Assembly (NCBI GenBank): GCA_028279475.1 | Contig: JANQNR010000004.1 | Location: forward strand, 62,001-126,000 | Reading direction: 5' to 3' | Length of the DNA: 64,000 nt | Origin: Rickettsiales bacterium | GTDB lineage: Bacteria; Pseudomonadota; Alphaproteobacteria; Rickettsiales; UBA998 | Shown here: positions 3,838 through 22,858 of the stretch, piece by piece | Position numbering within the stretch: position 1 is the stretch's first letter | Layout: every line of letters begins with the position of its first letter | The notes under the pieces: generated by a model | Seen by the model: the letters and a program-made list of their open reading frames with translations, nothing else | What the model was told of the DNA's origin: nothing | Database searches by the model: none | Made by a program: the position numbers and the translations under genes

Positions 3838-6800
3838 TGCACCGCCTGATTGACCTTGCCATTGATTCGCACCGCGTGGTGTTCATGGTGCTTGCGTTTA
3901 TTATTATTGCCGGTTCCATGGCGTATCAGGCTGTACCGAAGGAATCATCCCCCGATGTGCAAGTGCCGATTATTTATACCTCTTTGCGACTGGAGGGCAT
4001 TTCTCCTCAAGATGCAGAGCGGCTGCTGATCCGTCCGGTGGAGAAGCAATTACGCTCCATTGATAACGTCAAGAAGATGTCGGCGGAAGCGACGGAAGGG
4101 TTTGCTTCGGTGACACTGGAATTTCGTGCCGGGTTTGACCCGGACATGGCGTTGGCGGACGTACGGGCAGCGGTCGATAAGGCCAAGCCGGAATTGCCGG
4201 ATGATGCAGATGAACCTAATGTGCAGGAAGTCACCTTTAGCCAGTTTCCCATTATCAACGTAGTACTGAGCGGTGATGTGCAGCTCCGTACGTTAACGAC
4301 GCTTGCCCGTGATTTACGCGATAAGTTGGAAGGGTTGAGCAGCGTACTGGAAGCGAAAATCGCTGGGGATCGTGAGGAAATGCTGGAAGTGGTGCTCGAC
4401 CCGCTGGCATTGGAAAGCTATGGCATCAACCCGGCAGAAGTGCTGCGCCGGGTCAGCAATAACAACGTGCTGATTGCCGCCGGACGGCTGGACAATGCGA
4501 CCGGGCGCTATAGTATTAAGCTCCCTGGGCTGATCGAAACGGCCAAGGATTTATATAGCACACCCATTATCAATACGCCGGATAAGGTGGTAGTGCTGGG
4601 CGACATTGCCACGGTGCGCCGTACGTTCAAGGATGCGGAAAGTTTTGCTCGTATCAACGGGCAGCGCGCCGTTGGTGTATCGGTGTCGAAGCGTGCCGGC
4701 GCGAACATTATCGACACGGTTGAAGCAGTACGAGCACTGGTAGAAGAGGAGCAGCGCTTCTGGCCGCCGGGGGTGCAGGTGTCGTATTCCCAGGATACGT
4801 CCGGCGATATTCGTGACATGCTGCGTGATCTGGAGAATAACGTCGTGCTAGCCATCCTGTTGGTATTACTGGTGGTGCTTTATCACGTCGGGATACGTTC
4901 TTCCGTTCTTGTCGCGTTTGCCGTGCCAGGCGCTTTTCTGATTGCGGTACTATTTATCGCCATGGCCGGGTTTACGATGAATATCGTGGTGCTGTTTAGT
5001 CTGATTCTCTCTGCCGGGTTGTTGGTCGATTCAGCGATTGTGGTGTGTGAGTATGCCGAACGGCTGATGAAAGAGGAGGGGGAACGTCCAGCGCAAGCCT
5101 ATGCAAGGGCGGCGAAGCGTATGTCAGGGCCCATCCTCTCTTCAACGCTCACTACGTTGGCCGTGTTTATGCCGTTGCTGTTCTGGCCAGGGATTGTTGG
5201 GCAGTTCATGAAATATATGCCGATTACCTTGATTGTTACGCTGACCGGTTCATTGTTGATGGCGCTGGTTTTTCTACCAACGATTGGTAGTCGGTTGAGA
5301 AATAAGAATTCACGTCACTTCGGCGACTTGCCTCGCCAAAGTACAGCGGTGGCGGGAGGTCGGAGTCTATCACAATTATCTCCTGCTGTTGCACCAGATA
5401 CCGGCCTTCGCCAATATGACAATACTTACTCTGGAGCTATTCATCCTTTTACTCAGCGTTATCTGATGGCGTTGCAATGGGTGCTGGGTGCCCCATGGCG
5501 GGTGGTAAGCGCCGTATTGGGCAGCGTGGTCGTGGTTTTTGTTCTGTTTGGTACCATGGGGCCCGGTGTTGAATTCTTCCCGGATATTGAGCCGAAGAAC
5601 GCCAATGTGCTGGTGCGTACCGTTGGCAACCTGTCACTCAAGGAGAAAAACACCATCATGGAGCAGGTGGAGACGCGATTACAACCGCTCACGGATGAGG
5701 TCCGATTTTTCTATACGCAGGTGGGAGAGACGACACTGCGCGATAAGCCGGAAGACGTGATTGGGTTGGTACAGTTGGAATTTCGCAATTGGCGCCTGCG
5801 CCGCCCGGTGGAAGAAGTGTTGGCAGATGCCCGTGAGCGGTTGCGTGATCTGCCGGGTATCATTATCGAAACAGCAAAGCAGGAAGAAGGGCCGCCGACG
5901 GGAAAAGCACTGCAACTGGAATTTTCCAGCCGCTTTCCGGAGAAGTTGGATCCTGCCGTGACAGATTTTGTCAACGCCCTGGAAACAGAGATTGGTGGGG
6001 TAACGGATTTGGCAGATGATCGTCCCAAGCCGCGCATCGAATGGGAATATACCGTGGATCGTGTGGCCGCCGGGCGCAATGACGTGTCCGTGGCAGATGT
6101 CGGGCAGGTGCTCAAAATGGTGACGAACGGGGTGAAGATCAATGAATACCGCCCAGATGATGCTGATGATGAACTTGATATCATGGTACGTTTTCCTGAA
6201 TCGCATCGGACATTAAGCCAGTTATCGCAGTTACAAGTGATGACCGGGCAGGGAGTGCTGGAGCCGATTACCAATTTTGTCGAGCGAAAAGCCGAGCAGG
6301 CGGTCAGTATCATCCGCCGGGTTGATGGCGTCCGGGTGATGAATGTGAAGGCCGATGTGGTTGATGGCGTGTTGCCTGACGATAAGGTGCAGGAGGTCCG
6401 TGCCTATTTTGAATTAAATCCTCCCGATCCAGCCGTGCGACTAACATTTCGGGGAGAAGACGAAGAGCAGCAAGAGGCAATGCAATTTCTTAGCATGGCG
6501 TTTTTGATCGCGATTTTCACCATGATGCTATTGCTTACAGCGCAGTTTAACAGCTTCTACCGTATGGCTGTCATTATGAGCGCGGTGGTGCTTTCCACAG
6601 GCGGGGTTTTTCTGGGTGCGCTTGTCACTTATCATCCGTTCGGCATTGTCATGAGTGGGGTGGGGGTGATCTCCCTGGCAGGGATTGTTGTGAATAACAA
6701 TATTATTCTGATCGATACCTATGATGAGTTGCGCCAGCAGGGCATATCGGTGATGGAGGCATTGCAGCAGGCCTGTATGATGCGGTTGCGTCCTATATTG

Positions 6801-9274: not shown

Positions 9275-10528
9275 CTACGTATTCATCGAATCGAAGAACT
9301 CGGCATTGTTCTTCGTGTCTTTCAACTTTTTAATCAAGAACTCCATGCCATCACTGGCACCCATCGGGTCGAGGATACGGCGCAGCATCCAGACTTTGGT
9401 CAGATCGGCCTTATCCATCAGTAGGTCTTCTTTCCGTGTGCCGGACTTGGTGACATCAATGGCCGGGAAGATGCGTTTATCGGCCAGTTTGCGATCCAGT
9501 ACCACTTCCGAGTTACCAGTCCCCTTGAATTCCTCAAAGATCACCTCATCCATGCGTGAGCCGGTGTCAATCAAGGAAGTGGCGATAATTGTCAGCGACC
9601 CACCATCTTCAATATTACGCGCCGCGCCGAAGAAACGCTTTGGGCGTTGCAACGCATTAGCATCAACACCACCGGTCAGTACTTTCCCTGAAGAAGGCAC
9701 CACGGTATTATAGGCACGTGCTAGGCGAGTAATAGAATCGAGCAGGATCACCACATCTTTTTTGTGTTCCACCAGCCGCTTGGCTTTTTCAATCACCATC
9801 TCGGCCAGATTGACATGCCGGTGTGCGGGTTCATCAAACGTAGAACTGACAACTTCCCCTTTCACGGAGCGTGCCATGTCGGTGACTTCTTCCGGGCGTT
9901 CATCCACCAGCAGTACAATCAGCATACATTCCGGGTTATTTTCGGTGATCGCATGGGCGATATTCTGCATCAGTACCGTCTTACCGGTGCGTGGTGGCGC
10001 GACGATCAGGCAGCGCTGGCCTTTCCCGATCGGCGAGACAATGTCAATCACCCGGCAGCTTAAATCTTTGCTTGGTTTTTCCACTTCTAGCTTGAAGCGA
10101 TCATCCGGGAAAATCGGGGTCAGATTGTCAAAATTGACCTTCTTCTTCACCATCTCCGGCGCGTCGCCATTGATGGTAATCACCTCATCAAGAGCAAAAT
10201 AACGCTCGCTCTCTTTGGGGGCGCGTAACTCTCCCTCGATGGTATCTCCGGTGCGCAGCCCATATTTCCGAACAAAGGAGGGAGCGACATAGATGTCATC
10301 CGCACCGGCCAGGTAATTTGCTTCCGGCGAGCGCAGGAATCCGAATCCGTCCTGCAAAATTTCAATCGTACCGCCACCCTGAATGGTTTCGTCGTTTTCG
10401 GCCTGTTGCTTCAGGATCGCAAAGATCAACTCCTGCTTGAGCATGCCACTGGCGTTCTCAATCTCGTATTCTTCGGCGAGTGCGAACAACTCGTTGGGCT
10501 TTTTCAGTTTTAGTTCTTTGATGTGCAT
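9275..10528 (-). CDS. rho: Transcription termination factor Rho
   Basis: The 417-residue hexameric RNA-dependent ATPase terminates transcription. The N-terminal Rho_N helical domain ([20 protein letters not shown]) is followed by the RNA-binding cold-shock fold ([20 protein letters not shown]) and the RecA-type motor with Walker [11 protein letters not shown], Walker [12 protein letters not shown], the Q-loop and the R-loop TGGVDANAL. Length is standard. It is transcribed convergently with murC (18 bases between stops). A clear ribosome-binding site is absent; a weak CAGAAT hexamer ends six bases upstream of the ATG, so it may also be leaderless. Confidence 0.97.
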
Positions 10529-10726: not shown

Positions 10727-11920
10727 TTATACGGAAAGGCTAAGCAGCTTGATCGCATCCGTATTGACCACTTCGCCGCCCACACGCCGTGTCGTGTAGA
10801 ACTTGACGAACGGCTTGTCGGTGAATGGGTCACGCAGAATGCGCAGGCCGATACGATCGACGACCAGGTATCCCTCACGGAAATCACCCAGTGCCACCGA
10901 CAGTGATCCGCTGGAAGCAACCGGCATGTCCGCTGCTTGCACAACTGGTACACCAAGCAGTGTATCGGGTGCTCCGGCCGCCAGACCCGGCTGCCACATA
11001 TATTGATCCGTGGTGCTTTCTTTCAGCAGACGCACGGATTGAATCACGGTGCGATTCATCAGGAAGGTGGCGTTGCGTGTATATTCTTCCTGAAGGCTGT
11101 AGAATAGCTGGATCAATCCGTCCGCCGTGACGGCGCCATCGACGCCGGAGTTGACTTGCTCAATCTCACCGAAATTAGTGCCGGCAGGATATTGCAGGAT
11201 ACCGGTTGGCTGACCGCTACCAGTTCCATTGATAAAGGCCGTTGCTTCCATGCGGGCGAATTTGTCGGCTACTTTCTCGGCAATCCAGGCTTCTACATCT
11301 ACGGCGGCGTCATCCAACAGCTTTTGCGTGGCTTTCGGCTGAGCATACATTTCATGCACGGCGATAGTATTTTTACCAATCTGCGCTGTCGTGGTGTCTG
11401 TGACTGCACCGGTTTCCGTGGTCCAGGCCGCGCCCATGTCGCCACTATCCTCAATCACATCCAGCGCATCGGTAGAGATGACCTGTACCGTGGCCAATTG
11501 TCGCAGGGGCGAGGTGTCATAAATACGCTTGGCCACCCGCTCGCTCAATTCTTCGGTGACGAAATACCCGCCATCCGTATCACTTCCGACAGACAATGCC
11601 TTGGTCTGGAGTGCTTCCAGTCCGGAATCCATGCCTTTACGCAGATACAGCCCGAATGCCTGCTTGTATTCGTCATTGCTGGCATGGGCAGGGTATTCCG
11701 CCGTGCTCACTGCCGGGCGGTTATTGGCCGTTTCAATCCGGTTAAGGCGCTGCTTGCAGTGATCCATATTAAGGTTGAGACGCGCCAGATGCTCGTCATA
11801 GATCGGATCGGCGCTGCCATTGGCCTTGATCTCGCGATCACGGCAGGTGGCAACATCCTTGAACTGCTCCCAGGTTTTGCCCATTTCATAGGCGGTATCG
11901 TTGGTGTCTGAATAACTCAT
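10727..11920 (-). CDS. HK97-fold phage major capsid protein (GTA gp5-like)
   Basis: The 397-residue protein has the HK97 capsid layout: a hydrophilic, helical N-terminal scaffold-like segment of about 100 residues, then the fold starting near LSVGSDTDGGYFVTEELSERV and continuing through SPLRQLATVQVIS, AWTTETGAV, INGTGSGQPTGIL and LLGVPVV.A.DMP to FKVR-like RRVGGEVVN. This matches capsids of alphaproteobacterial gene transfer agents and related siphoviruses. The frame is intact. GAGGA precedes the ATG by 8 bases. The prohead protease is immediately upstream, the usual capsid gene order, but no terminase, portal, adaptor or tail gene is present in the window, so it looks like a relic or a displaced module. 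A terminator follows. Confidence 0.92.
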   Translation of the reverse strand: MSYSDTNDTAYEMGKTWEQFKDVATCRDREIKANGSADPIYDEHLARLNLNMDHCKQRLNRIETANNRPAVSTAEYPAHASNDEYKQAFGLYLRKGMDSGLEALQTKALSVGSDTDGGYFVTEELSERVAKRIYDTSPLRQLATVQVISTDALDVIEDSGDMGAAWTTETGAVTDTTTAQIGKNTIAVHEMYAQPKATQKLLDDAAVDVEAWIAEKVADKFARMEATAFINGTGSGQPTGILQYPAGTNFGEIEQVNSGVDGAVTADGLIQLFYSLQEEYTRNATFLMNRTVIQSVRLLKESTTDQYMWQPGLAAGAPDTLLGVPVVQAADMPVASSGSLSVALGDFREGYLVVDRIGLRILRDPFTDKPFVKFYTTRRVGGEVVNTDAIKLLSLSV

Positions 11921-11973
11921 AAGTTCATTCCTCTTGTTGGTTATGGGTTAAAAGTGAATGTGTGAATGGCGCG

Positions 11974-12543
11974 TCATACCAACCCGTGAATACACGCTAG
12001 CACTTTGTTGTAGCTGTGTTGCAGGCGCACGGACTCACCGCCATGTCCCTTCACAACGGTAATAAGCGCTGCTTCATTGGCCGGGAAGGTGACAATGCTG
12101 ACTTCCCACAAATCTATATCGGTAATGGTGCGAACGCCGGATTTGGACGCCTGATGATAGCGGCGGGGCGTGTAGCCAATACTCAGCCCATTCACCACGC
12201 TACGTTTCAGTAGGGCATAGGCCTCGCGGGCACGCGCCACTTCCATCATCAGTCTGGCTTTGATATAGAGGCCGCGTTCATCTTCCCGTAATTCTTCAAT
12301 GACGCCGATCGGTTCATTCATATGGTGCTGCCAGAGCAGTTTGATGTTGCCCTGACGCTGGGTAATGGTGCGTTTGAAGGCACCACGCTGGATAATGTCT
12401 TTCTGGGAATCCACGACATTAAACACGCTGGCATAACCAGCGAAAATGCCGTTTTCTTCCAATTGCTTGATTTCTAATGTTGCCGATGCCGTCTTTGACT
12501 CGTGCATGTCAGGCGATATGCCACGCTCATAATATCCACTCAT
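11974..12543 (-). CDS. HK97-family prohead protease (GTA gp4-like)
   Basis: The 189-residue serine protease of the herpesvirus-assemblin-like fold cleaves capsid scaffold during head maturation. It shows ENGIFAGYASVFNVVDSQKDIIQRGAF at the start of the fold, the His region LLWQHHMNEPIG, and the nucleophile region KRSVVNGLSIGY, with the usual LWEVSIVTFPANEAA strand. Both catalytic regions look intact. GGAG lies shortly before ATG 12543. It precedes the capsid gene by 53 bases on the same strand, as in GTA clusters. The C-terminal tail after about residue 165 is divergent. The hicA stop lies about 95 bases upstream. Confidence 0.9.
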   Translation of the reverse strand: MSGYYERGISPDMHESKTASATLEIKQLEENGIFAGYASVFNVVDSQKDIIQRGAFKRTITQRQGNIKLLWQHHMNEPIGVIEELREDERGLYIKARLMMEVARAREAYALLKRSVVNGLSIGYTPRRYHQASKSGVRTITDIDLWEVSIVTFPANEAALITVVKGHGGESVRLQHSYNKVLACIHGLV

Positions 12544-12638: not shown

Positions 12639-12836
12639 TCAAAATCGCTTTTTAAGTCCGGCTTTTTTCAGAATACTATTCGCCGTGTGAGGTGATGGGA
12701 TATTCTTTGAAATGATCAGGGGTTCGCCATTTGCGGTGCGCCAATGTTCATGTGAGCCCTTGCCATTGCCAGTATAATACGCTCCGGCCTCCGCTTTTAG
12801 TATATCTGTCAACTGTCGATAATAGCCTTTTCCCAT
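12639..12836 (-). CDS. hicA: HicA mRNA-interferase toxin
   Basis: The 65-residue protein has the double-stranded-RNA-binding fold of HicA toxins, which cleave mRNA. The motif GKGSHEHWR carries the expected catalytic histidine, and the C-terminus NSILKKAGL is the standard ending of the family. ATG 12836 shares one base with the hicB stop (TGATG); a TTG three bases earlier is the only alternative. Antitoxin-first order (hicB then hicA) occurs in a subset of hic loci. No truncation is visible. Confidence 0.85.
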   Translation of the reverse strand: MGKGYYRQLTDILKAEAGAYYTGNGKGSHEHWRTANGEPLIISKNIPSPHTANSILKKAGLKKRF

Positions 12837-13066
12837 CAATGAACTCGGTTTTCGAAGGACTTATCTATCATATAGAGCGGAGTAATATCAACCGTTTCTT
12901 GCTGATCATTGACTATGCTATTGACTGCCCACGGTACGACATCGAAGATTTCTTCTAATGTTTCGCAATCTACGAACATGCCCGGTAGTTCTTTACAACG
13001 TGCCTGGTACATTTTGTGCTTTTTGTCATACGATACTTCAATGAGGTACTCTGTCCCACGGTTCAT
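12836..13066 (-). CDS. hicB: HicB-like antitoxin
   Basis: The 76-residue product begins with the partial RNase-H-like fold typical of HicB (YLIEVSYDKKHKMYQARCKELPGMFVDCETLEEIF), which inserts into the HicA active site. There is little room for a C-terminal DNA-binding domain, so autorepression may be weak or need a very short ribbon. AGGAG lies 9 bases before the ATG. It is translationally coupled to hicA. The pair sits between the phage-derived protease/capsid genes and pdxH, all on the minus strand. Confidence 0.8.
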   Translation of the reverse strand: MNRGTEYLIEVSYDKKHKMYQARCKELPGMFVDCETLEEIFDVVPWAVNSIVNDQQETVDITPLYMIDKSFENRVH

Positions 13067-13184: not shown

Positions 13185-13787
13185 TTATGGAAACAACCAA
13201 TCTTTATCCCATGCACCGGCCGTGTTTTTGGTGAATTGCAGGCGATGGTGCAGGCGGAACTCCTTCTGTTCCCAGAACTCGATTTCTTCAGGAATAACCA
13301 GCCAGCCTGACCAATGAGGTGGGCGGGGAATAGATTGTCCTTCAAATTGCTGACTATATTCTTCTATGCGTCTGTCCAATGCATCGCGGGAGGGCAGGGG
13401 CGTCGATTGTTGTGATGCCCAGGCACCTAACTGCTTTTCCCGTACGCGTGAGGCAAAGTAGGCGTCGGCGATCTCCGGTGCTACGGCTTCTACTTTGCCG
13501 ACAATACGCACCTGCCGATCCATCGGCATCCAATAGAAGCATAGTGCTGCTTGATGATTAGCGTTGATTTCCTGACTCTTTCGACTTTCCAGATTGGTAT
13601 AGAAGAGGAATCCTTCCTTGCTATGGTCTTTTAACAGGACAATGCGTGCCGATGGCAGTCCAGATGCGTCCGCCGTCGCCAGACACATGGCGGTTGGCTC
13701 CTTGATGTCCGGATGTACAGTAGCGTTTTCCAGCCATTCAGAGAATAACGGGATGGGATCATGGATGTGATCGGGAATAAATGACAT
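13185..13787 (-). CDS. pdxH: Pyridoxamine/pyridoxine 5'-phosphate oxidase
   Basis: The 200-residue FMN enzyme makes pyridoxal 5'-phosphate, the last step of vitamin B6 synthesis and salvage. Family landmarks are PTAMCLATADASGLPSARIVLLK, GFLFYTN..SRKSQEI, ALCFYW, QVRIVGKVE, the SRVREKQLGAWASQQS stretch, and the C-terminal PHWSGW.VIPEEIEFW and RLHHR motifs that hold FMN and substrate. The C-terminus ends in DWLFP, close to the family L.P ending. No ribosome-binding site precedes the ATG; a promoter with its -10 5-6 bases upstream suggests a leaderless transcript. Confidence 0.96.
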   Translation of the reverse strand: MSFIPDHIHDPIPLFSEWLENATVHPDIKEPTAMCLATADASGLPSARIVLLKDHSKEGFLFYTNLESRKSQEINANHQAALCFYWMPMDRQVRIVGKVEAVAPEIADAYFASRVREKQLGAWASQQSTPLPSRDALDRRIEEYSQQFEGQSIPRPPHWSGWLVIPEEIEFWEQKEFRLHHRLQFTKNTAGAWDKDWLFP

Positions 13788-13903: not shown

Positions 13904-13929
13904 GTAACGCGCATCAGGGTGCTAGCGAA
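13904..13929 (+). promoter_or_regulatory. ECF-sigma (SigF-type) promoter of the bufferin operon
   Basis: GTAACG (13904-13909), exactly 16 bases, then CGAA (13926-13929). From memory, the Caulobacter SigF regulon, which includes DUF2282/DUF692 operons, uses GTAACC-N16-CGAA, so this differs by one base. Predicted start is near 13936, leaving a leader of about 60 bases with a good AAAGGAG site. Confidence 0.6.
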
Positions 13930-13996
13930 TAGAGGGGTGCAAGTCACTTAGATGGTTTGCATCATGTTACACAACCAATAGACAAAGGAGAAACCC

Positions 13997-14263
13997 ATGT
14001 CGATCAAATCAACTGTTACTAAGACACTGGCGATTGCCGCAATGACCACTGCTGTTGCTGGTTTTACTGCTGACGATGCTCAGGCCGGTGAAAAAGAAAA
14101 ATGCTACGGTGTTGTGAAGGCCGGTAAAAATGATTGCGCCAATGCGGCTGGTACGCATTCCTGTGCTGGTCAGGCCAAGAAAGACGCTGATGGCGGCGAG
14201 TGGGTATATGTACCAAAAGGCCTGTGCGATAAGTTGGCCGGTGGTTCAGTTACACCTAAATAA
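13997..14263 (+). CDS. bufA1: Bufferin precursor peptide (DUF2282, BufA1-like)
   Basis: The 88-residue protein has a signal peptide ([19 protein letters not shown]...AQA, cut near residue 30) and a Cys-containing mature region with four cysteines at 36, 47, 56 and 77. The KCYGV..AGKNDCA, THSCAG and PKGLC blocks are the DUF2282 signature. Bufferins are large RiPPs whose cysteines are converted by the MNIO enzyme to thiooxazole-type groups, then exported to the periplasm by the signal peptide and thought to bind copper. AAAGGAG precedes the ATG by about 7 bases. It is the first gene of a four-gene operon with bufB, bufC and doxX. The exact residues modified are inferred from family knowledge, not visible here. 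Confidence 0.9.
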
Positions 14264-14291
14264 GCCTGTTAACGTTTGAGGGAAATGCGGG

Positions 14292-15233
14292 ATGTCGGAA
14301 GCTAATCATGTATCTTTAACGCAAGAGCGCGTTGGAGTTGGGCTTCGGCACCCGCATTACCAGTATTTTCTGAATGACAGGCAGGATGTCGCCTTTCTTG
14401 AAGTACATCCCGAGAATTATTTTTGTGGTGGCAAGAACCTGGCGATTCTGGATGATATGGCTGCCGAGTATTCCATCAGTCTGCATGGCGTCGGATTATC
14501 ACTTGGATCAGCGGAACCGGTTGATACGATCCACGTAAAGCGATTTAAGGCGTTGGTAGACCGTTGCAATCCACTCTTTATTTCCGATCATGTATCCTGG
14601 AGTGCGTCCGGCAATGCGCATCTGAATGATCTGCTGCCGTTACCTTATACGGAAGAATCGCTGGAGGCGGTGTGTGCAAATATTGACCGCGTGCAGCAGG
14701 CAATGGGTCGACAAATGCTGGTGGAGAACCCCTCTAGTTATGTGGCATTCCAGCATTCCACCATGTCAGAGCCGGAATTTATCAATCGCATTGTCGAGCG
14801 TACCGGATGCGGGTTGATCCTGGATATCAATAACATCTATGTACAGGCGCATAATCACGGAGAGAATGCGCTGGATTATTTGCGGCATATTACAGTGAGC
14901 GCTGTACGCGAGATGCATTTGGCCGGATATATTTCTCAGGTGCTAGGAGAGAAGACATTACTCATTGACACGCACAGCCAACCAGTATGTGACAGTGTGT
15001 GGGGGCTCTATCATGAGGCGATCAAGCGGTTTCCTGAAGCCTTTACGCTGATTGAGTGGGACAAAGACATTCCGGAAGTCAATGTTTTGTTAGGAGAAGC
15101 ACGTAAGGCGGCAGAGTTAAAACATATGCATTTGAGTGCATCTTTGCCACGTAAGGGAACCATTGCCGTGCAAACGCCGGTGCGGAAGTTCGCTAATGAC
15201 GTTTCTTCCGGGAAGAGGGTGATATGCAACTAG
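14292..15233 (+). CDS. bufB: MNIO (DUF692) multinuclear iron oxidase, bufferin-modifying enzyme
   Basis: The 313-residue TIM-barrel enzyme uses a multinuclear iron centre to oxidise cysteines of the precursor peptide in the cytoplasm. Candidate metal ligands are in their usual places: HPENYF, SLHGVGLSLG, ISDHVSW, ENPSSYV, LDINNIYV, EMHLAGY, IDTHSQPV and IEWDKDIP. Length fits the roughly 280-320 residue family. It starts 28 bases after bufA1, with a GAGGG site upstream, and its end overlaps bufC by 10 bases. The tail beyond about residue 280 is a short basic extension. The family assignment is very secure; the exact product chemistry is inferred from characterised relatives. Confidence 0.93.
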   Translation: MSEANHVSLTQERVGVGLRHPHYQYFLNDRQDVAFLEVHPENYFCGGKNLAILDDMAAEYSISLHGVGLSLGSAEPVDTIHVKRFKALVDRCNPLFISDHVSWSASGNAHLNDLLPLPYTEESLEAVCANIDRVQQAMGRQMLVENPSSYVAFQHSTMSEPEFINRIVERTGCGLILDINNIYVQAHNHGENALDYLRHITVSAVREMHLAGYISQVLGEKTLLIDTHSQPVCDSVWGLYHEAIKRFPEAFTLIEWDKDIPEVNVLLGEARKAAELKHMHLSASLPRKGTIAVQTPVRKFANDVSSGKRVICN

Positions 15234-15985
15234 CCACCCTGCAACAACAATTTGCCGGCGCTTGTTTCGGACAAGAGATGCAGCCATGGGATGACGTGCT
15301 ACAAGGTGATAGTGCGCTCCATCAACCACGGCTCGAAATTTACAGCAATAATGTGCTGGGTAGCTTGAATGAGACGCTGGCATCTACTTTTGAAGCAACG
15401 CAGGCGCTGGTGGGTGAGGAGTTCTTTAATGCCATGGCAGCGCGGTATATTCAGGAAACCCCTCCTAACTCCGGGTGTTTGTATGATTACGGCGCCGGGT
15501 TCAGTCAGTTTATTGCTGGTTTTGAACATGCGCAGTCACTGCCGTATCTTGCCGATGTAGCGGCACTGGAATGGGTTTGGCAGGCAGCCTATGTAGCGCA
15601 GGATGACGTAGCCATGACACCACAGGAATGGGCTGGGGCGCAGCCTGAGCGTCTAACGCTTCGGGATAATGTACAATTAGTGACCTGCACCTATCCGGCA
15701 GAGGCGATTCGCCAGTTTGCGCTTCAGGAAGGAGAAACGCCGGAACTGACCCCTGGTACGTATCATTACCTGCTGCATCGTCCGGAACTGGACGTGGCAT
15801 GTCACGAAATTTCCCTCCCTATGAATGCGTTGCTTTCAGCGCTACAGCATCGTGCAACATTGGAAGAAGCCAGCACCATTGTCTTGCATGCAGATGAGGG
15901 CGCAGAACTTTCAGATTTATTTGCTGGGTTATTCCGTCTAGCATTGATCCAACAACCCGATACAGAGGAAGGAGAACCCCTATGA
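15224..15985 (+). CDS. bufC: DUF2063 partner protein of the MNIO enzyme
   Basis: The 253-residue protein has an N-terminal helical DUF2063 domain (LQQQFAGACFG...LEIYSNNVLGSLNETLASTFEATQALVGEEFFNAMAARYIQETPPNSG, then LPYLADVAALEWVW) and a C-terminal region of unknown fold (about 120-250). In MNIO systems this protein binds precursor and enzyme and is needed for modification. The older name putative DNA-binding domain is not supported by function. Its start lies inside bufB (10-base overlap) and its stop overlaps the doxX start (ATGA), so all three are translationally coupled. Confidence 0.88.
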   Translation: MQLATLQQQFAGACFGQEMQPWDDVLQGDSALHQPRLEIYSNNVLGSLNETLASTFEATQALVGEEFFNAMAARYIQETPPNSGCLYDYGAGFSQFIAGFEHAQSLPYLADVAALEWVWQAAYVAQDDVAMTPQEWAGAQPERLTLRDNVQLVTCTYPAEAIRQFALQEGETPELTPGTYHYLLHRPELDVACHEISLPMNALLSALQHRATLEEASTIVLHADEGAELSDLFAGLFRLALIQQPDTEEGEPL

Positions 15986-16482
15986 CTATTGATGCTATCA
16001 TGGCAACGGCCAATAAGGTGAAAGGAGCGTTGGAGCGCGTTGGTGAACCAATCGTGTTGCTGTTGACCCGTCTCTATATGTTCGATGTGTTTTTTACATC
16101 CGGCAAGAGCAAGTTAGATAATTACCTCAATGGTGACTGGTCAACGACCGTCTATCTGTTTGAGGAAATTCACCCGGTGCCTTTCCTGCCGGCGAATGTG
16201 TCGGCGGTGATGGGTACGGCAGGGGAGGTGATTCTCTCCAGCCTGTTATTAATGGGGCTGTTCGGCCGGTTTGCCGCGTTTGGTTTGCTGATTATGACGG
16301 GTGTGATTGAAATCTCCTTCAATTACGTCGATCCGGAATATACCACGTTTGATTCGCATTATATGTGGGCGCTCTTGCTTTCTGTGCTGATGGTGCGTGG
16401 TGCGGGGACACTATCGGTGGATACTCTCTTCTTCGGTGCACTGGAGAAGAAGGAGTCGGGAAAAAATCCGGTGGCGGCTTAA
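15982..16482 (+). CDS. DoxX-family membrane protein of the bufferin operon
   Basis: The 166-residue protein has about four hydrophobic segments, including LLTRLYMFDVFFTSGKSKL, a segment around MGTAGEVILSSLLLMGLFGRFAAFGL and another around YMWALLLSVLMVRGAGTLSVD. DoxX proteins are small quinone-associated inner-membrane proteins, and members of this kind often close bufferin operons, where their role is unsettled (electron transfer to the quinone pool is one idea). It overlaps bufC by four bases. No independent promoter is seen. The gene is followed by a palindromic repeat. Confidence 0.88.
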   Translation: MTIDAIMATANKVKGALERVGEPIVLLLTRLYMFDVFFTSGKSKLDNYLNGDWSTTVYLFEEIHPVPFLPANVSAVMGTAGEVILSSLLLMGLFGRFAAFGLLIMTGVIEISFNYVDPEYTTFDSHYMWALLLSVLMVRGAGTLSVDTLFFGALEKKESGKNPVAA

Positions 16483-16492
16483 GGGGAGTTCT

Positions 16493-16554
16493 CGTCATTC
16501 CGGCGAAGGCCGGAATCTTATCATTACCAGACCCCGGCCTTCGCCGGGGTGACG
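16493..16554. repeat. REP-like long palindrome (two nested hairpins)
   Basis: Two 8-bp hairpins with 4-base loops (ATTCCGGC/GCCGGAAT and ACCCCGGC/GCCGGGGT) are also complementary to each other, so the whole 62 bases can fold into one stem of about 21 bp with CGTC/GACG ends. This is the common GTCATTCCGG-type dispersed repeat of alphaproteobacterial intergenic DNA and may also end the bufferin transcript. Confidence 0.8.
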
Positions 16555-16709
16555 GACGCATAATCCACAAAAAAACTCGCATTCATTCGCCACCTGTCAT
16601 AAAATCTTCACACTTGAATGTTAATTTTTGTTATGACTTTAACAAGGTAGTGTGCTACTAGCCTCAGCTAACGCATAAACCGAACAGTATAACATAAGGA
16701 GTGTGAGTG

Positions 16710-17822
16710 ATGGCAACAACTGAATGGAAACCAATTCAAGGTACGGTAAAGAGTCGGAAAGAGGGTGCAGAGAGTAAATACAAGACTGCAGGTGAGTTAT
16801 TGGATGGTGTTGTTCATCAGTTCAACTTAGTAGCTGAGCGTTTTGCTACTATTGATAAATTGCAGCATATCAATTTTGCGCAATCAATTTCCCCCACTGT
16901 AACTTTTGTACAAGATGCAGATAACCCAGAGTTGCGTGCAGTATCAGAAGAACGGCAAGATATTACCGACAAAGTTGAAGTGACAGATTATTCGACAGCA
17001 AGCCGTGACCTGACTATGGCGAATATTGCGACTGCAGATAGCTGGCTTCGGTTAGAAGAGATTGAGCGTGAGCTTAATAATGCTGAAAAGAACTTTGTGG
17101 AATTTACTAGTGATGACCCAGCTCACCAAGCTTATAAAAATCAGTTGGCGGAACTAAAGAATAGTTTTCAACTAAACCCAGCCTATGTGCATGCTCATCG
17201 CCAGCGTGATGACGAAGGCAATGTTCTTACAAAAGAAGATGGATCGCCCAAATGGAAAATGGGAGATAAGGATCTGCTTAAGATTGAAGCGCAAATGTCT
17301 TCAAAGTATAAAAAAGGTGAAGAGCCTTTGATCAGGGATACATCAATTAGTATTGCAATTCCGGCGGCATTACTGTCGAGTCAAAAAGGCTTGTTCGACT
17401 CTGTAAAAGATAAAAAAGGTAGCGTTAGCATTGACGAGCACCGTAAAGCTGTTGAGGCATATCTGGAAACACCAGGAATCGCCAAGCGCGCTGAAGAGTT
17501 TAATGCAATGTCAAGAGAAGAAGCCATTGACTTACGCAATAAGCTCTCTGAAGAGTTATTCAACCAAACCAAAAAAGGACGGAAGTCCGATCTAATTGAT
17601 GTGAAAGCGGCAGTTGATCTGTTAAATCCAACCAAATTAAAAAATAATCTGGAAAATACGCCATTAAAAATGGCGAACAACATTCAAAGCTTTGCTGGTC
17701 CTGTGAAGCCAAAACGGGAACAAGCAACAGACCAAACCCCCGTGCAACAGGCTGAGCCTGTAGAAAAATCAGTAGCAGCGAAAGGAGCTGAACAAGAGCT
17801 AGCAGTTGCCGGGAAATCTTAA
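16710..17822 (+). CDS. Orphan soluble protein with Gln/Pro/Lys-rich tail
   Basis: I do not recognise this 370-residue protein. The start is ATG 16710 (AAGGAG 8 bases upstream). It has no signal peptide, membrane segment or cysteine, and is strongly charged. The N-terminal 110 residues are mixed helix/strand (GELLDGVVHQFNLVAERFATID). Residues about 110-320 are predicted mostly helical and Lys/Glu-rich, with a SIAIPAALLSS stretch in the middle. A low-complexity tail (about 325-370) carries repeated Pro/Gln/Glu/Lys. The DNA is more AT-rich than its neighbours, and it is bounded by dispersed palindromes on both sides. It could be a lineage-specific secreted effector or a cytoplasmic structural protein; neither is shown. 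Confidence 0.8.
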   Translation: MATTEWKPIQGTVKSRKEGAESKYKTAGELLDGVVHQFNLVAERFATIDKLQHINFAQSISPTVTFVQDADNPELRAVSEERQDITDKVEVTDYSTASRDLTMANIATADSWLRLEEIERELNNAEKNFVEFTSDDPAHQAYKNQLAELKNSFQLNPAYVHAHRQRDDEGNVLTKEDGSPKWKMGDKDLLKIEAQMSSKYKKGEEPLIRDTSISIAIPAALLSSQKGLFDSVKDKKGSVSIDEHRKAVEAYLETPGIAKRAEEFNAMSREEAIDLRNKLSEELFNQTKKGRKSDLIDVKAAVDLLNPTKLKNNLENTPLKMANNIQSFAGPVKPKREQATDQTPVQQAEPVEKSVAAKGAEQELAVAGKS

Positions 17823-21100: not shown

Positions 21101-22858
21101 ATGGCAGACGTCACCACCATGACCCGCGAGCAGCTCAGTGCGAAGGCGCGTGAGATTGTCGATAATATTCTGGCAACCATGCCACAAAACCCTGATTTGC
21201 CGATGCGGAGCGTGGATGAGGTGGTGGGGCTCTTTAAACTGGCAGATGATTTGGGAGTAGCGGCAGAGCTAAAAGTAGGAAAGGAATTAGCGCAAGTCCG
21301 CAAGGCGGCAAAAAGTAATAATATTCCTTTTGGTCCAGGGGATAAATACGAAACACTCGTTAAAGGCCAGATTAATACATTCATAGGCGGAATGGCTAAG
21401 GCCGTTGAGCTGGCTTCCAAAAAACTGATAGATGAGCATCCAGATTATAAAGGTCAGCAAGCAGCTGATAAGATGACAGAATATGTGGCAGACTATTTGA
21501 GGCGTGATCCACATAGCCGTGAAGCAATTGGGTTTATCAACGATTTAAGTGCAATTGCCGATCCAAACGTTGAAACGACATCAAGTGGTAATCGAGATCA
21601 GGTTATTGAGCAGCGTATTGAAAAGCTGGTTTATGGTGGAAATGAGCCGTTTTCTATTAGCAAGTTTTTAGCGCAACATGCACCGCAAGGGCAAGCACCG
21701 CAACAAACGGCAGAAGTGACGAAAGAGAAGAGTGCACCAAAGGCAGAGAGCTCCAATAAAAAACCTGTCGAGAAAGAAAAGTCGAGCACGTCGGAGAAAC
21801 CTACGACCCCTCCCACGCAGGCAAAACCGAAGCCTGAGTCCAATACGGACACCCAGCCGGAGGCGTCGCCGCCTGCACCGGCAAAACCATCCAAGCCCAA
21901 ACTAACCAATTTTGACAATGACGATGCCGCGGCCATTGCTGCACGAGTGGACTTATCTCAGGCTCCGGCAATTGCCAACCGGATTCAGGATGGTATTCTT
22001 GGCATAAAGGGCAGCCCCAGCTTCCGAAATGAACAGGTACCGAAGCATGGCAAGAAGGGCGGTGATCCGTTTTCTTGGATCACGCAATTCTGGATGGATA
22101 ACGTCCAGCCGGGCATGAATTGGCTACGGGATATGGCGATGGGGTTGCTTCATGCCGTTTCACTGTTGTTTGGTGGGGAAGGGTTTGGCAAAGCGTTTGC
22201 TTCAATTGGCGAATATCGTGCGCAGGCCAGTACCGGGCGACAAATGAAAAGTGTATTAGCAAATATCTATGGATCTGATCCGGTGGATATAGAATTCACC
22301 AGTAAAACCGGGGCAACGCCGGATGTCTATGTGCAGATTTCTACCTATCGTGGTGATTTGTTGCAGGCGCGGCGCGAGTTTGATTCATTCCTACGTAGTA
22401 ATGGCCGTCCAACCGGCGCCGATTATGATGCGGCACGGCAACGGCTGGATATGGCAGAGCGCCGTATGGAGGTGCTGGATGATCGCTTGCAGGCCGATTA
22501 CGGAAAGTCGGCAAAGGAATTATTTGATGAGTTCAAGGATTATAAGCAAAGTGTCATGTATGCGGTGGCGGAGTCTATGGGAGAGCAGGCGCGCGCGAAT
22601 GGGTTAAAAGATACGCCAGGAGCGGAACAGCTGATGGCAGGATTCCGTACCAACGCACCGGTACCTGAATTGACCCGCAATCGCAAGCAGGGGAGAGAGC
22701 ATCCATCACACGCACCATCGCGCCCAAGCATTAATCCGAATGATTATAATGTTGGCTATGACGCAAAGCCGGTACCTTCCGATGTGCCGCCGTTGGTTAC
22801 TCCCGGTTCGGTTCCTTCATTGACGGATCGGAGCGGGGAGATTCGCCTTCCGGGCTAG
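21101..22858 (+). CDS. Large orphan protein with Pro/Lys/Glu-rich linker
   Basis: I do not recognise this 585-residue protein. It has an N-terminal helical domain (about 1-195), a Lys/Glu/Pro/Ser/Thr linker (about 196-275), and a second domain from about 280 with an amphipathic to hydrophobic segment (WLRDMAMGLLHAVSLLFGG, near 340-360), a helical coiled-coil-like stretch (ARREFDSFLR...MAERRMEVLDDRLQADYG) and a Pro-rich end. There is no cysteine and no signal peptide. It is the second gene of a pair with the 113-residue orphan. Its last 62 bases overlap the end of mscS on the other strand. Domain order suggests a scaffold, or an effector-like protein acting at membranes, but nothing proves it. 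Confidence 0.78.
   Translation: MADVTTMTREQLSAKAREIVDNILATMPQNPDLPMRSVDEVVGLFKLADDLGVAAELKVGKELAQVRKAAKSNNIPFGPGDKYETLVKGQINTFIGGMAKAVELASKKLIDEHPDYKGQQAADKMTEYVADYLRRDPHSREAIGFINDLSAIADPNVETTSSGNRDQVIEQRIEKLVYGGNEPFSISKFLAQHAPQGQAPQQTAEVTKEKSAPKAESSNKKPVEKEKSSTSEKPTTPPTQAKPKPESNTDTQPEASPPAPAKPSKPKLTNFDNDDAAAIAARVDLSQAPAIANRIQDGILGIKGSPSFRNEQVPKHGKKGGDPFSWITQFWMDNVQPGMNWLRDMAMGLLHAVSLLFGGEGFGKAFASIGEYRAQASTGRQMKSVLANIYGSDPVDIEFTSKTGATPDVYVQISTYRGDLLQARREFDSFLRSNGRPTGADYDAARQRLDMAERRMEVLDDRLQADYGKSAKELFDEFKDYKQSVMYAVAESMGEQARANGLKDTPGAEQLMAGFRTNAPVPELTRNRKQGREHPSHAPSRPSINPNDYNVGYDAKPVPSDVPPLVTPGSVPSLTDRSGEIRLPG

Follow-up and report, generated by a model that had tools for sequence, protein, structure and literature searches.

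Does the four-gene cluster at 13997-16482 of the window, the whole 64-kb stretch of DNA that was analysed, form a complete bufferin operon, and what controls it? Bufferins are peptides that carry thiooxazoles derived from cysteines and sequester copper in the periplasm (PMC12452194). The set of DUF2282, MNIO, DUF2063 and DoxX genes is the published core of the Buf1 bufferin clusters, and DUF2282 genes are present in 4,072 fully assembled genomes (PMC12452194), so the operon belongs to an already known and very widespread system. The gain is therefore modest: an alphaproteobacterium with a small genome contributes a Buf1 cluster that is clean and complete, and, as a testable addition, control of the operon is tied to one particular sigma factor encoded elsewhere in the genome. 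The overall reading, which is held with high confidence, is that of a functional-looking Buf1 operon under an unlinked SigF-NrsF pair, which would be induced by copper stress and would make a thiooxazole-bearing, copper-binding periplasmic peptide.

Gene content and integrity of the operon

In the first-pass annotation, a bufferin-type operon of four genes was described, and the four reading frames start exactly where they had been placed and are all open (Table 1). The genes had also been described as joined by overlapping starts and stops, which is correct for bufB/bufC (10 nt) and bufC/doxX (4 nt) but not for bufA and bufB, which are separated by a gap of 28 nt. A profile search of the four proteins gave matches above the gathering scores for DUF2282, MbnB_TglH_ChrH (PF05114), DUF2063 and DoxX. 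The bufferin-type reading is borne out by a maturase above the cut-off of NF050167, a four-Cys DUF2282 precursor, a partner with DUF2063 and an RRE-like domain, and the Buf1 gene order. As judged from the sequence, these features support the assignment of 13997-16482 as a complete Buf1-type bufferin operon of the Caulobacter CC3254-CC3257 or 'gig' type.

Table 1. Features of the bufferin locus, in positions of the window
Feature	Coordinates	Strand	Details
SigF-type ECF promoter element GTAACG-N16-CGAA (-35 GTAAC, -10 CGAA)	13904..13929	+	26 nt, 67 nt 5' of the bufA start
bufA1 (DUF2282 bufferin precursor)	13997..14263	+	88 aa; PF10048 E 6.9e-26
bufB (MNIO/DUF692 bufferin maturase)	14292..15233	+	313 aa; PF05114 E 4.3e-102, NF050167 365.5 bits
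bufC (MNIO partner, PME type 1; DUF2063 + C-terminal RRE-like domain)	15224..15985	+	253 aa; PF09836 E 1e-22
doxX / HvfX-like membrane protein	15982..16482	+	166 aa; PF07681 E 9.7e-12
Imperfect inverted repeat, possible terminator or REP-like element	16493..16554		26-nt arms, 85% complementary

The four genes also follow one another as bufA-bufB-bufC-doxX in MAGs of related alphaproteobacteria and in Legionella (loci L004, L005, L006, L008, L018, L019, L021 and L022, the last from Legionella brunensis). At L006 (G029:C15), the MNIO match of G029 reads through one TAA, probably just beyond the gene end. The genome that contains the window has a single DUF2282 gene and a single MNIO gene, and a search of it for a second gene of either kind found none. 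The frames are open and closely packed, and the metal-site residues and the precursor cysteines are invariant, which upholds the earlier view of an undamaged operon. Together with the conserved promoter described below, the same features speak against a decayed or silent cluster, and the profile E-values of the four genes refute a chance arrangement; either explanation is considered extremely improbable.

Directly 3' of doxX lies an inverted repeat (CGTCATTCCGGCGAAGGCCGGAATC...) with an identical core at 5397-5412 in the window and a terminator-like stem at 16497-16516. On the other side of the operon, genes for a phage major capsid protein (PF05065, 1.3e-80) and a prohead protease (PF04586, 2.8e-36) are present at 10727-12543 (-), between rho (9275-10528) and pdxH (13185-13787), and are adjoined by a HicA-like ORF (12639-12839). 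No further phage genes were recognised there, and the reading given to this segment is that of a putative capsid-protease remnant or gene-transfer-agent-like piece. In addition, no Pfam or NCBIfam match was found for an ORF of 371 aa at 16707-17822 (+), and no Pfam match for an ORF of 585 aa with a Pro/Lys-rich middle at 21101-22858 (+).

Precursor, maturase and partner proteins

The precursor cysteines are located exactly where they had first been reported, at positions 36, 47, 56 and 77, and in a sequence comparison they are in register with those of the precursors of about 20 relatives. Homology to DUF2282, the lack of which had been named beforehand as grounds for rejecting the reading, was found at 90.4 bits (PF10048; cut-off 22.4). 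By eye, the N-terminus is Sec-like, with Lys and a hydrophobic stretch, and the signal would span residues 1 to about 30 (AQA-G) with the site at 28-31. A Sec signal peptide is described as acting as the leader in a passage of PMC13419390 that cites earlier work. In bufferins, modification affects the central cysteines, whereas a disulfide joins the two outer ones (PMC12452194). By analogy, Cys47 and Cys56 are the expected modification targets and Cys36-Cys77 the expected disulfide; cysteine modification and copper binding of the precursor are likewise expected from its family membership.

BufB scores above the cut-off of 310 bits of the NCBIfam model NF050167 (MNIO_BufB, 'MNIO family bufferin maturase'). 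The DUF692 metal site, which had been called intact, is indeed so: H65, H100, E145, D178, N181, H209, D226, H228 and E255 are invariant over 16 homologues. Which of these residues bind iron is presumed from what is known of the family. Residues 51-257 of BufB align with the TglH structure and residues 83-257 with that of MbnB, with conserved EN, D-x-x-N-type, H-x-AG and D-x-H motifs. In HvfB, substitutions of N175, D242 and H244 abolish activity (PMC13419390), and BufB has an Asn and a D-x-H pair like N175 and D242/H244, a likeness by kind and not by residue-by-residue numbering.

Several chemistries are known among MNIO enzymes (PMC12452194 Table 1), and in the captophorin paper it is left open whether MNIO-PME1 clusters yield thiooxazole alone (PMC13097082). 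BufB could thus install a modification other than 5-thiooxazole, such as an oxazolone/thioamide, on the two central cysteines. This is judged quite unlikely: BufB exceeds the equivalog cut-off for bufferin maturases, its scores against the MbnB, ApyH and ChrH models fall far short of their cut-offs, and the oxazolone/thioamide assignment of oxazolin has since been revised to thiooxazole (PMC13097082). A 5-thiooxazole is the more probable product; its formation, a four-electron oxidation, lowers the mass by about 4 Da for each cysteine.

Sequence-based searches for a solved structure found none for the DUF2282 precursor and no structure relative for BufC, and the fold route was therefore taken. 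An AlphaFold model of BufC, built from 13 relatives (pLDDT 89.4), has three significant PDB matches, namely TglI twice (8hci/8hi7, E 9e-7), which is an MNIO partner, and NGO1945 (3dee, E 2.6e-4), the reference DUF2063-RRE protein. These fold matches indicate that both domains are present, even though Pfam detects only DUF2063. The fourth protein scores 45.8 bits against the DoxX cut-off of 23.6 (PF07681) and 45.3 bits against the cut-off of 80 of the NCBIfam HvfX-family model, and so falls below the latter; the HvfX and HvfC models, whose cut-offs DoxX and BufC miss, are named after the oxazolin branch. A DoxX gene is common but not obligatory in Buf1 clusters.

Single-chain fusions of MNIO and DUF2063 (PF05114 + PF09836, 524-569 aa) were observed at L009 (658-2322, -), L010 (652-2346, -), L014 (766-2337, -) and L017 (1459-3165, +), all in genomes of the same order, and the MNIO frames at G003:C125 and G008:C16 are about as long. 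The passages on fusions in two papers on MNIO enzymes make no mention of this arrangement, which would set enzyme and partner at 1:1.

A SigF-type promoter element upstream of bufA

The interval chosen in the first-pass annotation opens at GTAACGCGCATCAGGGTGCTAGCGAA, and its first base, 13904, is also the first base of a SigF-type ECF element that the annotation did not mention. The Caulobacter SigF promoter is GTAACC-N16-CGAA, and the start site of CC3254-CC3257 was mapped by 5' RACE (PMC3511200). The element at 13904 differs from this consensus in a single base, with G and not C as base 6 of the -35.

In the 64-kb window alone, the element is no more frequent than chance predicts (1 observed, 1.05 expected), and it was therefore relied on only after a cross-genome test. 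Eight of 19 bufA upstream regions carry it, all with a 17-nt spacer after GTAAC (26 nt overall), and in shuffled bufA upstream regions 0.011 elements are expected on average. No matches were obtained when spacers of 10-16 and 18-25 were scanned in the 19 regions. In a set of 17 related genomes that carry bufA, the exact element is present in seven of the eight that bear NrsF and in none of the nine without it (upstream of G029 and G035, two of these nine, not separately inspected); the Fisher p of 0.0004 is indicative only, since it is uncorrected for kinship. In the eighth NrsF genome, G028, the element at the corresponding position has one mismatch, and a one-mismatch form is also found in G002, a genome of 83% completeness in which NrsF was not found. 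In a sigma-70 scan around the operon, promoter-like and terminator-like sites were as few as in shuffles or fewer, and the upstream region of bufA is better explained by the ECF-type element than by sigma-70 sites. What the sequences themselves show are the genes, the domains, the conserved residues, the promoter element and its association with NrsF across genomes.

The unlinked SigF-NrsF pair

The genome that contains the window has one nrsF (G000:C8:21446-22054, PF06532 E 5.9e-27), directly preceded by an ORF of 178 aa for an ECF sigma factor, on a contig other than that of the operon. The sigF-nrsF pair directly adjoins bufA in G020, G028 and G031 and is next to bufC in G006, which supports a functional link. 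Control of the bufferin operon by the unlinked SigF-NrsF pair is thus likely. In Caulobacter, CC3254-CC3257 are SigF-dependent (PMC3511200) and induced by Cu, a sigF mutant is Cu-sensitive, and the shared response to copper is that of the SigF regulon (PMC8224329). Since SigF control of such operons is known there, the regulatory link is useful but no surprise.

The Caulobacter SigF regulon also responds to dichromate and cadmium (PMC3511200), relatives of the operon are named gig for gold-induced genes (PMC8224329; PMC12452194), and no copper gene was recognised beside the operon in the window. These observations could suggest that copper binding is incidental and that the operon serves mainly another metal or stress (gold, silver, chromate, cadmium or oxidative stress). 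On the other hand, inactivation of sigF in Caulobacter leaves Cr/Cd sensitivity unchanged and makes the cells Cu-sensitive (PMC3511200; PMC8224329), and copper is bound by bufferins (PMC12452194). A main role outside copper is therefore regarded as unlikely, and copper stress is retained as the probable signal.

The SigF regulon of this genome was viewed through pattern matches only. Six GTAAC-N17-CGAA sites are present. Two of them fall within long ORFs and share their direction, and a third falls within a long ORF in antisense orientation; a clear target is seen for the site at bufA alone, and no such site was found upstream of sigF itself. Somewhat tentatively, with the chances put at a little under even, SigF-NrsF may be a one-target switch in this 1.98 Mb genome: of the six sites, only that of bufA would immediately precede a gene evidently connected with metal stress, and the sigF gene would have moved away from the operon and lost its own element. 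If so, NrsF and the element together could predict bufferin operons under envelope metal-stress control across the order.

Proposed working of the operon

The chemistry, export, copper binding and copper induction of the peptide can be outlined from studied relatives. Metal stress, copper above all, would lift the inhibition of SigF by the membrane protein NrsF, and SigF would then transcribe the four genes, bufA to doxX, from the promoter element at 13904. BufC would hold the precursor via its RRE domain and the Sec signal peptide would act as the leader, while BufB, with its multi-iron site and O2, would oxidise Cys47 and Cys56 to 5-thiooxazoles. The peptide would be exported through Sec, after which the signal would be removed and Cys36 and Cys77 would form a disulfide. 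In the periplasm, the thiooxazole thiols would bind copper, and the DoxX protein would have a supporting role.

Comparison with known systems

The methanobactin system (MbnABC) has an enzyme of the same MNIO superfamily with the conserved metal-site motifs found in the window, whereas its precursor is unrelated and the system acquires copper rather than buffering it. A methanobactin cluster was rejected, as the enzyme scores 76.4 bits against a cut-off of 325 for MbnB (TIGR04159) and the partner is a DUF2063 protein and not MbnC.

The Haemophilus HvfABCX (oxazolin) and fontiphorin systems, the EGKCG captophorins, share with the window an MNIO enzyme, a DUF2063-RRE partner and a DoxX-type protein, and the Sec signal on their precursor has a putative counterpart in the Sec-like N-terminus of the window's precursor. 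Their precursor, however, is a repeat peptide, whereas that of the window belongs to DUF2282. An oxazolin/Hvf cluster was rejected on the scores for HvfB (233.4 against 360 bits), HvfC (50.7 against 142) and HvfX (45.3 against 80).

The four-gene order of the window is found in L. brunensis (L022) and in the Legionella 'gig' operons. In L022, BufB is about 46% identical to BufB of the window, and bufA has no exact SigF element upstream.

In Caulobacter crescentus, sigF adjoins CC3254-CC3257 (CCNA_03363-03366) and has its own SigF element, and a second buf operon is present, whereas here the sigF-nrsF pair is on another contig, no element is seen upstream of sigF, and the DUF2282 and MNIO genes are single. 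The two systems have in common the gene order DUF2282-DUF692-DUF2063-DoxX, a GTAAC-N17-CGAA element upstream of the operon and sigF-nrsF in the genome.
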